DNA of 64,000 nt from Azospirillaceae bacterium. Its GTDB lineage: Bacteria > Pseudomonadota > Alphaproteobacteria > Azospirillales > Azospirillaceae. The translations under genes and the position numbers were made by a program. Where the stretch lies: the NCBI GenBank assembly GCA_028283825.1, contig JAPWJW010000003.1, positions 1 to 64,000 of the forward strand, written 5' to 3'. Under the pieces are notes generated by a model. It did no database searches and was not told the origin of the DNA. It saw only the letters and a list, made by a program, of their open reading frames with translations. Positions 37,217-47,804 of the stretch are shown piece by piece (positions within the stretch are counted from its first letter, which is position 1; every line of letters starts with the position of its first letter).

Positions 37217-38026
37217 TCAGTGGGCGTCGCGGATGTGCACGCGGCCGCTGCCGCTCTGGCTGATGGACTGGTGGGCGGCGCTGCCGTCCAGGGTGAAGTC
37301 GCCCGATCCGGCGATCTCCACCACCAGCGGGTCGGCCTTGCCGGCGTGGATAGCGACATTGCCGCTGCCGTGGATTTCGGCGGAGACGGCACCGTTGACC
37401 GCGGCGATATCGACATTGCCGGACCCGTTGATCTGCATCGACACGGTTCCGCCGGTCTTGCCGGTGCGCACCTTGCCGCTGCCGCTGATCTCCACCGACA
37501 GGGCCTTGTCGATGTCGCCCAGGTTGATGTCGCCGCTGCCGCTGACCTCCAGCGAGGCCTCGCGCACATGGCCCACGGTGATGGTGCCGGAGTGCAGATC
37601 CTCCACCGCCAGGGCGGCGTTCAGGTCGCCCGCCGTCACTCGGCCGACGAAGTCGTCCACCGCCAGACTGGTCCCGGCGGGCAGGGTGACAGTGACCGTC
37701 ATGAAGTCTTCGTCGTTCAGGTGCTCATGGTGGCGGTGTTCCTGCTTCACCAACGCCTTCTCGCCCTCGTCATGGAAGGTCAGGCGGCCGACCTGGTCGT
37801 CGGGGCCATCGGCCGACACGGTGATGTCCTTGGCGGAGGACGACACCTTGACGTCGACATTGGCCACCAGGCCCCGCAGCTCCAGCGTCCGGCCGTGCAG
37901 GGTCTGCGGGCCGACGGTGGCGGCATGCGCCGGAACGGCGGTCAGGGCGATGAAGGCGGCCATCAAGGGGGCGGCCGCCAGCGGGGCGACGGACAGGGCG
38001 GCCAGGCGGTGGGGAATGCGGAACAT
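37217..38026 (-). CDS. Secreted DUF2807 (GIN-type adhesin-like) protein
   Basis: A 269-residue protein with a signal peptide (AAFIALTAVPAHA-A) and a right-handed beta-helix-like body in which the unit V/E-I-x-G-S-G-x-[VI] recurs: LEVSGSGDINLG, VEISGSGKVRTG, MQINGSGNVDIA, AEIHGSGNVAIH, VEIAGSGDFTLD, SQSGSGRVHI. This is the DUF2807 pattern. The family sits in the periplasm or on the cell surface; its role is not established. A His/Glu-rich stretch (EHRHHEHLNDED) could bind metal. It is a single gene with a terminator. Confidence 0.85.
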   Translation of the reverse strand: MFRIPHRLAALSVAPLAAAPLMAAFIALTAVPAHAATVGPQTLHGRTLELRGLVANVDVKVSSSAKDITVSADGPDDQVGRLTFHDEGEKALVKQEHRHHEHLNDEDFMTVTVTLPAGTSLAVDDFVGRVTAGDLNAALAVEDLHSGTITVGHVREASLEVSGSGDINLGDIDKALSVEISGSGKVRTGKTGGTVSMQINGSGNVDIAAVNGAVSAEIHGSGNVAIHAGKADPLVVEIAGSGDFTLDGSAAHQSISQSGSGRVHIRDAH

Positions 38027-38209
38027 GAGGCGGGGGCTCCCTGACGAAAACGGGGGGAACCGCCGTCGGCGACGGTTCCCGTGTCCCGCCTATATCGCAA
38101 GGGGTGTGCCAGTCCTGGAACCCGCGGAAAGCCTAGGGTGGGCTCCAAGGCGCGCAGAGGGAGAGGCGATTTAATCGCCGTTAACGCCACCAGGTGGTGA
38201 TTTTAGCCA

Positions 38210-44579: not shown

Positions 44580-44595
44580 TGTCCGATATCGGACA
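44580..44595. promoter_or_regulatory. NifA-type upstream activator site, module 1
   Basis: TGTCCGATATCGGACA is a perfect 16-bp palindrome of the form TGT-N10-ACA, the established NifA binding pattern. A second, near-symmetric copy (TGT-N10-ACG, 44597-44612) follows. Its centre is 143 bp from the -24 GG of the module 1 promoter. Confidence 0.7.
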
Positions 44596-44729
44596 GTGTC
44601 CGCTGGCGGACGGCTTGGCGTTGCCGATCTATTTAAGAAGTGGCCGATACGGCCATTTAATGGCGCTGGCCTGTTGATGTCGTGATAACGGCAGTCCTTT
44701 TCGCGGAAAAATTGGCGGTTTCCCAGGGT

Positions 44730-44745
44730 TGGCACACCCCTTGCT
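44730..44745 (+). promoter_or_regulatory. Sigma-54 promoter, module 1
   Basis: TGGCACACCCCTTGCT matches the sigma-54 consensus TGGCAC-N5-TTGC at every defined base. The start codon of the first peptide is 43 nt past the -12 box. Confidence 0.88.
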
Positions 44746-44787
44746 CTTAGGGGGACATCAACCAACCATCCTCCGACGGAGACCGAA

Positions 44788-44925
44788 ATGACCGCTTTCA
44801 CCGCTTCCAGCCGCACCGCTTCCTTCCGCTTCTTCAAGGTGTTCCCCCGTACCGAGATCGTCGAGAGCGTGGCCATGCTGGCCGTGGCGCTGCTGATCAG
44901 CGTCAGCATCAACGCCATGCTCTGA
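44788..44925 (+). CDS. Small membrane peptide, type A, module 1
   Basis: A 45-residue peptide too short for most gene finders. The first 20 residues are polar and basic (SSRTASFRFFK); from VESVAMLAVALLISVSIN onward it is one hydrophobic span ending at the C-terminus in NAML. Expected topology: N-terminus in the cytosol, short periplasmic end. The ATG has GGAG 7-8 nt upstream. The three type A peptides of this island are about 70-80 percent alike over their length, with codon-level differences that keep the protein, which supports real coding. No known family recognised; function unknown. Confidence 0.82.
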   Translation: MTAFTASSRTASFRFFKVFPRTEIVESVAMLAVALLISVSINAML

Positions 44926-44968
44926 TCCAGCGATCACTGCCAACCTTGGGAAGAAGGAAGCCGCCGTC

Positions 44969-45103
44969 ATGACCACCCATACCGTCGCCCCCACCGCCAG
45001 CAAGCTGACCAACCGCCTGCCCAGCATCGCCGCCCTGGTCGAGACCGTCGGCATGCTGTCCGTCGCCGCCATCATGGCGCTGTGCATCAACTACATGCTG
45101 TAA
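44969..45103 (+). CDS. Small membrane peptide, type B, module 1
   Basis: A 44-residue peptide: a Thr/Ala-rich polar N-terminus (MTTHTVAPTASKLTNRL), then a hydrophobic span from IAALVETVGMLSVAAIMALCIN to the end YML. The ribosome site AAGGAAG precedes the ATG. It follows the type A gene after 43 nt. Its last 22 residues match the type A peptide in pattern (E-x-V-x-M-L-x-V-A ... I-N-x-M-L), so A and B look like ancient duplicates. A cysteine in the span is present in all three B peptides and absent from A. Function unknown. Confidence 0.82.
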   Translation: MTTHTVAPTASKLTNRLPSIAALVETVGMLSVAAIMALCINYML

Positions 45104-45151
45104 GATCGCCCCGACCCCCAGGTTTTTCGCCCGGGGCGTCTGCCGTATCTG

Positions 45152-45202
45152 AAACGAAAAGGCCCTCTTCCCACGCGTGGGGAGGAGGGCCTTTTCGTTT
45201 TG
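45152..45202 (+). terminator. Terminator of module 1
   Basis: AAACGAAAAGGCCCTC / GAGGGCCTTTTCGTTT is a 16-bp perfect stem, extended inward by the CCCACGCGTGGG palindrome. The T-run lies inside the 3' arm. The same core recurs after modules 2 and 3. Confidence 0.88.
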
Positions 45203-45290
45203 GTCTGCCGGCTTCCGGGATTACATCCTATGCGGGTATCGCATGGGTGTCATGTGGGCGCTGGCCGGGGTTCCGAAGGGCGATCCGGAG

Positions 45291-45306
45291 TGTTCGTTAG
45301 CGGACA
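45291..45306. promoter_or_regulatory. NifA-type upstream activator site, module 2
   Basis: TGTTCGTTAGCGGACA, again TGT-N10-ACA, with one mismatch in the outer palindrome. Its centre is 143 bp from the -24 GG of the module 2 promoter, the same spacing as in module 1. Confidence 0.68.
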
Positions 45307-45439
45307 GTGTCCGCTTTGGCGAGTCCAGAATGCCCCAGATTATACAATAAATAGCGAAAACGGCGACTTGATGGCGGTGTGATGTTGATGTCGCGATAAC
45401 GGCGAGGCCAAACCCACGGAAATCCTGGCTTACGGGTTC

Positions 45440-45455
45440 TGGCACGCCCCTTGCG
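45440..45455 (+). promoter_or_regulatory. Sigma-54 promoter, module 2
   Basis: TGGCACGCCCCTTGCG fits TGGCAC-N5-TTGC. The first peptide starts 44 nt past the -12 box. Confidence 0.88.
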
Positions 45456-45498
45456 ATTACCCAGTCATCAGACGAACCGCTCAACCATGGAGACACCG

Positions 45499-45636
45499 AT
45501 GACCGCCTTCGCTTCATCCAGCCGCACCACTTCCTTCCGCTTCCTGAAGGGGCTGCCCGGCACCGACCTGATCGAGAACGTGGGCATGCTGGCCGTCGCC
45601 CTGCTGATCAGCGTCAGCATCAACGCCATGCTGTAA
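45499..45636 (+). CDS. Small membrane peptide, type A, module 2
   Basis: A 45-residue peptide, same length and layout as its module 1 copy: MTAFASSSRTTSFRFLK, then ENVGMLAVALLISVSINAML as the membrane span and C-terminus. The hydrophobic end is identical to module 1 from MLAVALL on, while the middle differs (GLPGTDLIENV against VFPRTEIVESV). GGAGA precedes the ATG by 6 nt. An in-frame longer reading from 45451 would start at the -12 box itself and is rejected. Function unknown. Confidence 0.82.
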   Translation: MTAFASSSRTTSFRFLKGLPGTDLIENVGMLAVALLISVSINAML

Positions 45637-45728
45637 ACCGCGACCTTCCCGCCACTCAAGCCGTAACCGCCCTCATCGCCCGACCAGCGATCCGCCATCC
45701 ACAGACATCCACCCAAGGGGAATTGATC

Positions 45729-45887
45729 ATGACCACCGTTACCGTCAACCAGACCGCCACCGCTTCCGCCACCAGCGTTCCCAGCGCCTTTGGGGGCCTG
45801 ATGGCCCGCCTGTCCAGCGTGGTCGAGGCCGCCGGCATGTTGTCTGTCGCCGGCATCATGGCGCTGTGCATCAACTACATGCTGTGA
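45729..45887 (+). CDS. Small membrane peptide, type B, module 2
   Basis: A 52-residue peptide, eight residues longer in the polar part than module 1 (MTTVTVNQTATASATSVPS, then FGGLMARLSSVVEAAGMLSV). The span ends MALCINYML, identical to module 1. AAGGGG precedes the ATG by 10 nt. It follows the type A gene after 92 nt. Function unknown. Confidence 0.8.
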   Translation: MTTVTVNQTATASATSVPSAFGGLMARLSSVVEAAGMLSVAGIMALCINYML

Positions 45888-45955
45888 GCCTGCGCCGACC
45901 ACGATGCGCGCCCCGCCTGTGATGGGGCGCGCCGGCCGGGGGTTCCGGCACTGCC

Positions 45956-46004
45956 AAACGAAAAGGCCTTCTTCCCACCTGGGCAAGAGGGCCTTTCGCT
46001 TTTG
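45956..46004 (+). terminator. Terminator of module 2
   Basis: Imperfect hairpin built on AAACGAAAAGGCC / GGCCTTTCGCTTT with a CCCACCTGGG inner stem, clearly the same element as after module 1. A further GC-rich dyad (GCGCGCC ... GGCGCGC, 45907-45932) lies just before it. Confidence 0.8.
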
Positions 46005-46029
46005 GGGATTCTGTGTGGCGGGCCGCCTG

Positions 46030-46045
46030 TGTCCGCAAACGGACA
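46030..46045. promoter_or_regulatory. NifA-type upstream activator site, module 3
   Basis: TGTCCGCAAACGGACA, TGT-N10-ACA with perfect outer arms. Its centre is 144 bp from the -24 GG of the module 3 promoter. Confidence 0.7.
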
Positions 46046-46179
46046 GTGTTCGCCATCGTGCAGTGCAAATTTGCCCATTATTATACTAAATCGCCATAAC
46101 GGCGATTTTATGGCCATCGCGAAGCATGGCGCTGGTTGGTCAGCACCGAAAGCCCAGACTTTCCGCCATTTCGGGCAGT

Positions 46180-46195
46180 TGGCACACCCCTTGCT
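46180..46195 (+). promoter_or_regulatory. Sigma-54 promoter, module 3 (separated from its genes)
   Basis: TGGCACACCCCTTGCT is identical to the module 1 promoter. An IS630-type element begins right after the TA that follows the -12 box, so this promoter now reads into the insertion sequence. Confidence 0.85.
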
Positions 46196-46196
46196 A

Positions 46197-46219
46197 GAGC
46201 ATTTTGAAATAAGGCTGAA
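46197..46219 (+). repeat. Left terminal inverted repeat of the IS630 element
   Basis: GAGCATTTTGAAATAAGGCTG pairs with the right end with about five mismatches in 21. Confidence 0.8.
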
Positions 46220-46275
46220 TCGGTAAGGGGGATTCCCATTTATTTGGGCCTCTGATTCACTGCGTCTGTCTTGAG

Positions 46276-46695
46276 ATGGAGGCAGTGGCGATGGGTCGTC
46301 CGTATTCAATGGATCTTCGTGAACGGGTAGTGGCCGCAGTTCAGGGGGGCCTGTCGCGGCGTCAGGCGGCGGCTCGGTTCGGTGTGAGCGACAGCGCGGC
46401 GATCAGGTGGATGAAGCGCCTGAACGAGACGGGTGACGTCGCCCCTGGTCAGATGGGCGGTCACAAGCCCAAGAAGATATCCGGTGACCATCACACCTGG
46501 CTTGTTGCGCGCTGCCAGGAGCGGCCCTTCACCCTGGCCGTCCTGATCGCGGAACTGGGGGAACGCGGCCTGAAGGTCGACTACCGTTCGGTCTGGGAGT
46601 TCGTCCGTGGCCAGGGGCTGACTTATAAAAAAAGACGCTGGTCGCCAGCGAGCAGGACCGCCCCGACGTTGCCCACCGACGAGCGCAATGGGTGA
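46276..46695 (+). CDS. IS630 transposase, first frame (HTH part)
   Basis: A 139-residue N-terminal part of the transposase with a helix-turn-helix for end binding (SMDLRERVVAAVQGGLSRRQAAARFGVSDSAAIRWMKR; key residues LRERV, SRRQAAxxFxVS, WxKR). It begins near MGRPYSMDLRERV, so the second methionine at 46291 is the more usual start. The frame passes an A7 tract at 46627-46633, after which the protein homologous to other IS630 transposases continues in the -1 frame; the remainder of this frame is not family-like. Confidence 0.88.
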   Translation: MEAVAMGRPYSMDLRERVVAAVQGGLSRRQAAARFGVSDSAAIRWMKRLNETGDVAPGQMGGHKPKKISGDHHTWLVARCQERPFTLAVLIAELGERGLKVDYRSVWEFVRGQGLTYKKRRWSPASRTAPTLPTDERNG

Positions 46696-47234
46696 AGCAC
46701 CGGGCGTCGGTCGATCCGTCCCGCCTGGTGTTCATCGACGAAACCTGGACCAAAACCAACATGGCGCCACTCCGAGGATGGGGGCCGCGCAGTGAGCGCC
46801 TTGTCGGCAAGGCGCCCTTTGGCCATTGGAACACCATGACCTTCCTGGCCGCCCTGCGCCATGACCGCATCGAGGCTCCTTGGCTCTTGAACAAGCCCGT
46901 CAACGGCCAGCGCTTCCAGGTCTATGTCGAGGAGGTTCTCGCTCCGACCTTGAGCAAGGGCGATGTCGTCATCATGGACAACCTTCCCTCCCACAAGGCC
47001 AAGCCCGTTCGCAAGGCCATCCGCGACGCCGGCGCTAAGTTAATCTTCTTACCAAAATACTCCCCGGACATGAACCCCATCGAGAAGTTCTTCTCCAAGC
47101 TCAAGCATTCTTTGCGTGAGGCCCAGCCACGATCTATCGAGGCCCTCTGCAAGAGCATCGTAAAGACCATGGATACTGTTACGCCAGCGGAATGCTCAAA
47201 CTACTTCAAAAGTTGCGGGTATGGACCAACCTAA
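46692..47234 (+). CDS. IS630 transposase, second frame (DDE domain)
   Basis: A 180-residue C-terminal catalytic part with the DDE triad: VFIDETWTKTNM, VIMDNLPSHKA and NPIEKFFSKLK. The reading frame of this part stays open upstream to the A7 tract (KTLVASEQDRPDVAHRRAQWVKHRAS), so a -1 slip there would give one full transposase. Its end lies inside the right terminal repeat region. The element looks intact and possibly still mobile. Confidence 0.9.
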   Translation: MKHRASVDPSRLVFIDETWTKTNMAPLRGWGPRSERLVGKAPFGHWNTMTFLAALRHDRIEAPWLLNKPVNGQRFQVYVEEVLAPTLSKGDVVIMDNLPSHKAKPVRKAIRDAGAKLIFLPKYSPDMNPIEKFFSKLKHSLREAQPRSIEALCKSIVKTMDTVTPAECSNYFKSCGYGPT

Positions 47235-47247
47235 AATCATAATGCTC
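47227..47247 (-). repeat. Right terminal inverted repeat of the IS630 element
   Basis: On the minus strand it begins GAGCATTATGATTTTAGG, matching the left end. Confidence 0.8.
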
Positions 47248-47291
47248 TAATATAGGGACAACACCGACCAACGATCCTGATGGAGAGACAA

Positions 47292-47429
47292 ATGACCGCC
47301 TTCGCCGCCGCTAGCCGCACCGCTTCCTTCCGCTTTTTCAAGGTGTTGCCCGATATCGCCGTCGTCGAGACGGGCGCCATGATGGCCATCGCCCTGCTGA
47401 TCGCCGCCAGCATCAACGCCATGCTGTAA
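47292..47429 (+). CDS. Small membrane peptide, type A, module 3
   Basis: A 45-residue peptide: MTAFAAASRTASFRFFKVLP, then DIAVVETGAMMAIALLIAASINAML. It is the most divergent of the three A peptides in the span but keeps the length, the basic SRTASFRFFK stretch and the NAML end. GGAGAG lies upstream of the ATG. Because of the IS630 insertion it no longer has its own sigma-54 promoter next to it; read-through from the insertion sequence is possible. Function unknown. Confidence 0.8.
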   Translation: MTAFAAASRTASFRFFKVLPDIAVVETGAMMAIALLIAASINAML

Positions 47430-47510
47430 GTCGACCCGGCCCGTTCAACGCCTCGCCTCACCGACCATCGCCTGACCAGCGATCACCAGAATTCCCAAGG
47501 GGACAAGATC

Positions 47511-47642
47511 ATGACCACCGTTACCGCCACCGAGACCGCCGTCACCGCCAGCATCGCCGCCCGCCTGTCCGGCCTGGTTGAGGCCGCCGGCATGTTGTCC
47601 GTCGCCGCCATCATGGCGCTGTGCGTCAACGCCATGCTGTGA
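47511..47642 (+). CDS. Small membrane peptide, type B, module 3
   Basis: A 43-residue peptide: MTTVTATETAVTASIAARLS, then GLVEAAGMLSVAAIMALCVNAML. The span matches module 2 almost fully; the end is NAML, as in type A, instead of NYML. AAGGGG precedes the ATG by 10 nt. It follows the A gene after 81 nt and is followed by the third copy of the terminator. Function unknown. Confidence 0.8.
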   Translation: MTTVTATETAVTASIAARLSGLVEAAGMLSVAAIMALCVNAML

Positions 47643-47689
47643 GGCGCGCTGGGGCGCGCCGGCACGGCGGTCGGGATCGTCCGGCCGGA

Positions 47690-47736
47690 AACGGAAAAGG
47701 CCTTCTTCCGCTTGGGGAAGAAGGCCTTTTCGCTTG
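47690..47736 (+). terminator. Terminator of module 3
   Basis: AAAAGGCCTTCTTCC / GGAAGAAGGCCTTTT, a perfect 15-bp stem; same core as after modules 1 and 2. Confidence 0.88.
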
Positions 47737-47804
47737 AGGCTCAGTTGTTTTGTTTTGGCTGTGCTTGACGTTCTTGTTCTTGGCCGGACGGACGGCGGCG
47801 TGGA

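Follow-up and report, generated by a model that had tools for sequence, protein, structure and literature searches.

Tandem σ54 modules for tail-anchored micro-peptides in the Azospirillaceae: probable envelope-stress operons with two candidate activators

The first 64,000 nucleotides (positions 1-64000) of contig C3 (JAPWJW010000003.1) of an Azospirillaceae bacterium, whose 7.16 Mb genome (GCA_028283825.1) is in five contigs, were analysed as one stretch, here called the window. Between positions 44580 and 47742 it contains an array of three tandem modules, each encoding two very small membrane peptides (A and B) behind a σ54 promoter. These modules are probably envelope-stress operons, with two σ54 activators, PspF and a two-component response regulator, converging on each promoter. 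The two-activator wiring predicted from the sequences is well supported. Gene structure, conservation, promoters, both kinds of activator site and the tendency of regulator and site to occur or be missing together are observed directly; the peptides themselves would act in the membrane.

Each module runs from a palindrome through a σ54 promoter, an A gene and a B gene to a hairpin terminator. The earlier note, made from the DNA letters of the window, had described a unit repeated three times, and all of its named parts are indeed present, in that order, in each module. Its TGT-N10-ACA palindrome is also there, although its full form is TGTCCG-N4-CGGACA and it occurs in tandem in module 1. The parts of the array are as follows, with open reading frame abbreviated to ORF.

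44580..44612, + strand: module 1 tandem response-regulator sites TGTCCGATATCGGACA (44580) and TGTCCGCTGGCGGACG (44597), motif scan
44641..44655, + strand: module 1 PspF-type site TGGCCGATACGGCCA, p = 0.003 against shuffles
44730..44744, + strand: module 1 σ54 -24/-12 promoter, motif scan
44788..44925, + strand: peptide A1, 45 residues, ORF and profile
44969..45103, + strand: peptide B1, 44 residues, ORF and profile
45150..45205, + strand: module 1 hairpin terminator (stretch folded), -40.1 kcal/mol, z -6.75
45291..45323, + strand: module 2 response-regulator site TGTTCGTTAGCGGACA (45291-45306) and degenerate second copy, motif scan
45352..45366, + strand: module 2 PspF-type site TAGCGAAAACGGCGA, p = 0.007
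45440..45454, + strand: module 2 σ54 promoter, motif scan
45499..45636, + strand: peptide A2, 45 residues, ORF and profile
45729..45887, + strand: peptide B2, 52 residues, ORF and profile
45950..46006, + strand: module 2 hairpin terminator (stretch folded), z -4.92
46030..46045, + strand: module 3 response-regulator site TGTCCGCAAACGGACA, motif scan
46091..46105, + strand: module 3 PspF-type site TCGCCATAACGGCGA, p = 0.003
46180..46194, + strand: module 3 σ54 promoter, motif scan
47292..47429, + strand: peptide A3, 45 residues, ORF and profile
47511..47642, + strand: peptide B3, 43 residues, ORF and profile
47688..47742, + strand: module 3 hairpin terminator (stretch folded), z -4.42

The σ54 cores at 44730, 45440 and 46180 are exact matches to TGGCAC-N5-TTGC. 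The second palindrome copy of module 1 begins 17 bp after the first and has one mismatch, and the second copies of modules 2 and 3 read as degenerate. Folding of the module 2 and module 3 terminators gave -29.4 and -30.9 kcal/mol. Neither motif is enriched by itself: with one mismatch allowed the σ54 core occurs 7 times in the window against 7.29 expected, and the palindrome has 23 forward matches genome-wide against 36 for the reversed control. The significance of the modules therefore lies in the combination of parts and its conservation. The array lies between a 340-residue ORF and lpxC, and all six further genomes examined within the genus have one locus in this setting. Across the family, 47 of 98 unique peptide genes have a σ54 core within 110 nt upstream, and most of the others sit behind another peptide gene of the same module.

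A1 shares 73% identity with A2 and 71% with A3, and the B peptides 30-35%; A and B are mutually related, with eight columns, including Glu26, Ala34 and Asn42, invariant in all six window peptides. A profile of these six recovered from their own genome only themselves and two weak matches, the latter probably due to chance, and gave strong matches in 6/6 other genomes of the genus. A wider profile of 18 peptides, applied at E 0.001 to 82 genomes of the family, found A/B peptides in 21: all seven of the genus itself, all 11 of genus g12, the single genomes of g9, g13 and g2 (G007, E 7.8e-5), and none of the 45 of g11. Among 385 sampled genomes of the class, with up to 17 candidates scored per genome, three matched, all from the same family, and none was found beyond it. 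The loci read contain the 98 genes already mentioned, encoding 88 distinct peptides of 41-69 residues with a variable N-tail, usually an 'LP', a Glu that opens the span and an Asn near its end; among 18 aligned peptides the Glu is invariant and the Asn is present in at least 90%. The earlier note's single membrane span ending at the C-terminus holds for all 88 by hydrophobicity, a median of 0 and a maximum of 6 residues following the best 19-residue window, and the family genomes bear out its description of conserved, multi-copy membrane peptides under σ54 promoters. Its proposed A+B hetero-pairs are not a rule: counting peptides at E 1e-4 or better, modules of G007, G014, G018, G030, G034 and G099 encode a single peptide, and obligate pairing was rejected. 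The A genes (n = 23) have a ratio of non-synonymous to synonymous change (dN/dS) of 0.52, against 0.87 and 1.27 in the other two frames, and the last 21 codons of the B genes (n = 24) a ratio of 0.41. None of the six window peptides matched a Pfam or NCBIfam model at E up to 1, PspB, PspG and LiaI families included; four of the six had no match in PHROGs, and the 18-row profile had none among PDB sequences. A literature search, limited for subscription journals, found no description of the peptides or of the regulator's regulon.

The palindrome points to a specific activator. Fourteen proteins of the genome exceed the cut-off for a σ54 activator domain (ten strong, four weak), and only one palindrome site, TGTACGATTTCGGACA, lies within 1 kb before the gene of any of them. 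This site, one mismatch from the palindrome, is just upstream of the gene for a 474-residue σ54 response regulator (P0001, G000:C1:2054575-2055996). Orthologs of the regulator, taken at 75% identity or more, occur in 17 of the 82 family genomes, and all 17 are among the 21 that carry peptides (Fisher p = 3.7e-14, the genomes not being phylogenetically independent). Of 47 module promoters one was dropped for too little upstream sequence. In regulator-positive genomes all 38 promoters have a site with at most two mismatches, -131 to -167 from the -24 box. Five promoters belong to regulator-negative genomes, three of four of which lack the site, the best match in G026, G101 and G007 having 5-6 mismatches; the three further promoters, from two unassigned metagenome-assembled genomes (MAGs), carry it. 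The site appears to follow this response regulator, its predicted ligand, rather than NifA.

The same site precedes exporter genes. In the bacterium's own genome it lies before an adaptor-ATPase-permease operon (C1:334 kb), before permeases (C5:242 kb) and, without a clear σ54 core, before another permease (C5:347 kb); in G014, G018, G030 and G034 the regulator gene adjoins exporter or permease genes. When a species collection was scanned for the exact site with a σ54 core, 29 stretches matched, of which 13 lie outside the family. Five of these 13 (Sphingomonas, Acidobacteriota, Aminicenantes, Massilia and Pseudoduganella) encode a regulator homolog of 47-56% identity divergent from the exporter genes behind the site, an adaptor(-ABC-FtsX) operon; the Sphingomonas homolog is cut by the end of the locus and that of Acidobacteriota is 1.1 kb from the site. 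Eight of the nine out-of-family stretches compared with the exporter proteins have an adaptor, ATPase or FtsX homolog, L227 having none. The regulator is paired with a histidine kinase whose hydropathy profile has hydrophobic stretches at residues 13-29 and 37-53 with seven residues between, a pattern alike in G018, G030 and G034, the out-of-family fragments being incomplete. Kinases built in this way, with two helices and hardly any periplasmic loop, often sense by way of a partner transporter. The regulator/kinase pair appears to drive a MacB/FtsX-type ABC exporter as well as the peptide modules.

Three side observations concern this unit. Loci L203, L210, L214, L216 and L220, from several phyla, share the arrangement of a σ54 regulator, with its kinase where the locus reaches far enough, divergent from adaptor-ABC-FtsX genes with a TGTCCG-N4-CGGACA site; no description of it was found in the literature searched, from which subscription journals were mostly absent. 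At L016 (6612-13923), L232 and L233, three to five large MacB/FtsX permease genes stand in a row behind tandem sites. In a gammaproteobacterial MAG (L221, 727-1491, + strand) the site and a σ54 core precede a repeat-rich protein that looks Toastrack-like by eye and has no Pfam match at 0.001.

The second activator is indicated by a 15-bp element common to the modules and the psp operon, which encodes PspA, PspB and PspC (Pfam). A matrix for this PspF-type element, built from 14 sites in seven psp promoters and from psp promoters only, scored p ≤ 0.007 in 10/10 held-out psp promoters. It found the element in 29 of 35 module promoters, including all three of the window, and, in a larger set that overlaps the first, in 37 of 46 at p < 0.05, often at -78, -89, -98 or -108. 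Among other σ54-like matches of this genome, used as a control, only 4 of 26 scored. PspF itself is present in 18/18 genomes searched. In G007, where the regulator is missing, only the PspF-type site remains at the peptide promoter (p = 0.003). The element implies control of the modules by PspF, its predicted ligand. Seventeen psp promoters, together with the window promoter of a DUF2807 gene, have a PspF-type site and no regulator site within two mismatches; exporter promoters have the regulator site, with a PspF-type site in one of seven. As the modules carry both and the psp and exporter operons one kind each, the modules would lie where two regulons overlap.

The DUF2807 gene, some 6 kb from the modules, has these features:

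38195..38209, - strand: PspF-type site TGGCTAAAATCACCA upstream of the DUF2807 gene, p = 0.003
38097..38111, - strand: σ54 promoter of the DUF2807 gene, motif scan
37217..38026, - strand: DUF2807 (Toastrack/LiaG-like) protein of 269 residues, a putative co-regulated envelope-stress gene, PF10988, 1.4e-14

Its match to LiaG (NF049997, 5.3e-8) is below the cut-off, and the best response-regulator site in its promoter has 5 mismatches; it is probably a separate PspF target. DUF4097, DUF2154 and DUF2807 have been united as Toastrack, a Psp partner domain (PMC11237479), which fits the presence of this gene. Elsewhere in the genome, one of the four control matches with the element, a σ54-like promoter (L075, G000:C2:347882), combines a PspF-type site of very high score (18.1) with an interrupted TGTCCGC...GCGGACA palindrome ahead of a gene for a 302-residue protein with no Pfam match, and is a possible further dual target.

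Several observations weigh against envelope-stress operons under two activators. Nine of the 46 module promoters miss p < 0.05 for the PspF-type element, and 26 control σ54-like matches from the genome itself (30 of 56 at hand, minus four known members) gave four positives against 1.3 expected. The matrix derives from these psp promoters rather than from the E. coli PspF consensus, and several held-out promoters are close relatives of the training ones. G026 (p = 0.17) and G101 (p = 0.06), both without the regulator, have weak PspF-type sites, and another activator may act there. G102, likewise without a regulator ortholog, keeps the palindrome site at two promoters (this genome is 93% complete, in 860 contigs). 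The dN/dS values are only moderately below 1. Conservation of the peptide frames, on which the earlier note had staked its proposal, holds for the A genes, but for the B genes three of five length groups do not show frame 0 as the most constrained. Finally, the net charge of the N-tail ranges from -6 to +5, which disfavours a single conserved electrostatic partner.

The following mechanism would account for these features. In E. coli, PspF is held by PspA and released by damage to the inner membrane; envelope damage acting on PspF would be one of two inputs here. The other would pass from the kinase with two membrane helices and almost no periplasmic loop to the 474-residue response regulator. 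Each protein would bind its own site, and with either activator firing σ54 RNA polymerase would make the peptides of 43-52 residues, which would insert in the inner membrane by their C-terminal helix. We infer that envelope stress is the inducer and that the peptides are protective. Their most likely role would be structural or that of a docking site: small elements shielding the bilayer or giving a seat to PspA or to the exporter, with a local action, such as strengthening or marking the membrane.

Small tail-anchored peptides also head the two partner systems. A psp-leader peptide ending ...AVPxEAWIILAVATxxSNLFIALA opens the psp operon in 15 of 17 loci judged, a count that leaves out the G016 locus, which could not be judged. 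The 15 loci with the leader are all from A/B-bearing genomes, and the two without it, in G011 and G012, come from genomes that also lack A/B. One psp-leader peptide, tail-anchored and 56 residues long, was noted at L089 (10097-9927, - strand). An exporter-leader peptide of 44-63 residues, ending ...NPDxWL... plus a short span, occurs in 7/7 genomes looked at. The three classes share the plan of a tail-anchored span heading a stress operon. Homology among them was considered but could not be demonstrated, with hhalign probabilities of 7.9%, 0.5% and 0.2%; the first two values, for A/B with the psp leader and with the exporter leader, leave such kinship unsupported and count against our interpretation. 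We put forward only tentatively, as a rather unlikely extension, that a new class of tail-anchored micro-peptides provides membrane subunits for two envelope-defence machines, psp and the exporter, and that the amplified A/B kind, which both activators would switch on, links the two, for example by docking PspA or tuning the exporter-kinase sensor.

Alternatively, the peptides could deliberately lower the proton-motive force or slow growth under stress, in a TisB- or YohP-like way, with psp and the exporter limiting the damage. Their small size and single span would suit such a role, as tight σ54 control would suit dangerous products. TisB-type toxins have a cationic amphipathic helix, unlike the A/B peptides with their conserved Glu and Asn in the span and N-tails from acidic to basic, and the genus retains three or four modules per genome. 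We think this explanation unlikely. In its favour, E. coli YohP is reported to lower membrane potential, induce PspA and PspC and protect cells (PMC12719787). By the same account YohP and other stress-induced small proteins of E. coli are very small, membrane-inserted and linked to phage shock, a likeness to A/B as far as their predicted insertion goes; unlike YohP, to which no sequence relation was demonstrated, A/B have σ54 promoters and tandem amplification.

There is also a small probability that the peptides are what the MacB/FtsX exporter transports, be it as antimicrobials, signals or pheromones, with psp as self-protection. Response-regulator sites are common to the exporter operon and the peptides, and the peptides are paralogous and amplified. 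In the darobactin exporter DarBCD, DarC and DarD are the best-scoring counterparts of the adaptor and the ATPase, but below the curated cut-offs (208.9 against 450 and 281.9 against 375), and the permeases do better with the ADOP model, also below its cut-off (295.1 and 133.5 against 622.3). That no export gene lies beside the peptides, as the earlier note had it, is true of the window as read; in G017 and G023, however, the peptides lie about 5.5 kb from the end of a MacB/FtsX exporter operon that is preceded by the same sites. Against a role as cargo, no leader or cleavage motif was seen by eye and the span lies at the very C-terminus. At the out-of-family loci the site stands directly before exporter genes, and nothing resembling A/B was noticed in the part that was translated (the genomes were not searched whole). 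In G026, G101 and G007 the peptides are retained although the regulator is absent. A comparison with two-peptide bacteriocins, which have a leader with a processing site and export and immunity genes alongside, gives a mixed picture: no leader was seen by eye, the peptides end with the span, pairs occur in only part of the family, and an exporter under the same regulator exists but does not adjoin the peptides in the window.

The NifA-controlled, nitrogen-fixation-state peptides proposed in the earlier note are highly improbable. TGT-N10-ACA is the NifA consensus, which the palindrome formally fits, and the host genus has NifA. However, NifA (TIGR01817) exceeds the cut-off in 11 of 20 genomes searched, with seven peptide-bearing genomes (G014, G017, G018, G023, G026, G030 and G034) below it and three NifA genomes (G011, G012 and G016) lacking the peptides. 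Three of four nif/fix-type promoters of the genome carry TGTCG...CGAC(A/G) sites instead (TGTCGCCTATCCGACA, ETF gene; TGTCGGGTTCCCGACG, NifT gene; TGTCGGGATTGCGACA, SufB-type gene). The fourth, TGTCGGTAACCGGACA before a gene that is nifB-like by eye, differs from the module site by a single mismatch, so the two kinds of site are not sharply separated. The other nif/fix-type sites lie at -70 to -89, the module sites farther upstream at -131 to -167. With phyletic pattern, site sequence and position all differing, and the module site following another regulator, control by NifA was rejected. That the transcripts act as RNAs, or that the ORFs are decaying remnants, might be argued from the moderate dN/dS and very short ORFs, but is hardly credible given one length class and a conserved C-terminal motif in five genera and the frame-specific constraint on the A genes.

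Module 3 is interrupted by one further feature:

46195..47249, + strand: IS630-type element with flanking TA, between the module 3 promoter and genes, ends by eye, Pfam ORFs

Its ORFs encode HTH (46276-46695) and DDE_3 (46692-47234) domains. Since it lies between the -12 box and A3, A3 and B3 are probably cut off from their own promoter. The genome has six full-length copies, including that of the window, at 100% reported identity, which suggests recent activity.

Among known systems, PspB, PspG and the LiaI of Firmicutes are small inner-membrane proteins tied to PspF or to a stress two-component system. The A/B peptides resemble them in being linked by sites to the psp operon and the DUF2807 protein, but have no PspB match in a genome with its own PspB, are encoded away from pspA, are amplified and would also answer to a second σ54 activator. 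Systems of the BceRS-BceAB and LiaRS type likewise have a two-helix kinase almost without extracytoplasmic loop, FtsX-type ABC permeases and a response regulator; here, in contrast, the regulator belongs to the σ54 AAA+ activators, a periplasmic adaptor is part of the exporter, and the regulon includes tiny peptides.

Small membrane proteins with a link to stress turn up often but are rarely explained, and for this family three classes of operon and the natural loss of one regulator in some genomes bear on the question. TGTCCG-N4-CGGACA is the predicted recognition site of a regulator-exporter system in Proteobacteria, Acidobacteriota and Aminicenantes. The modules suggest a shared output of the Psp response and a σ54 two-component/ABC exporter system. 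They also connect a peptide family that had no annotation with a defined stress circuit whose regulators and sites can be named, which makes its function directly testable.

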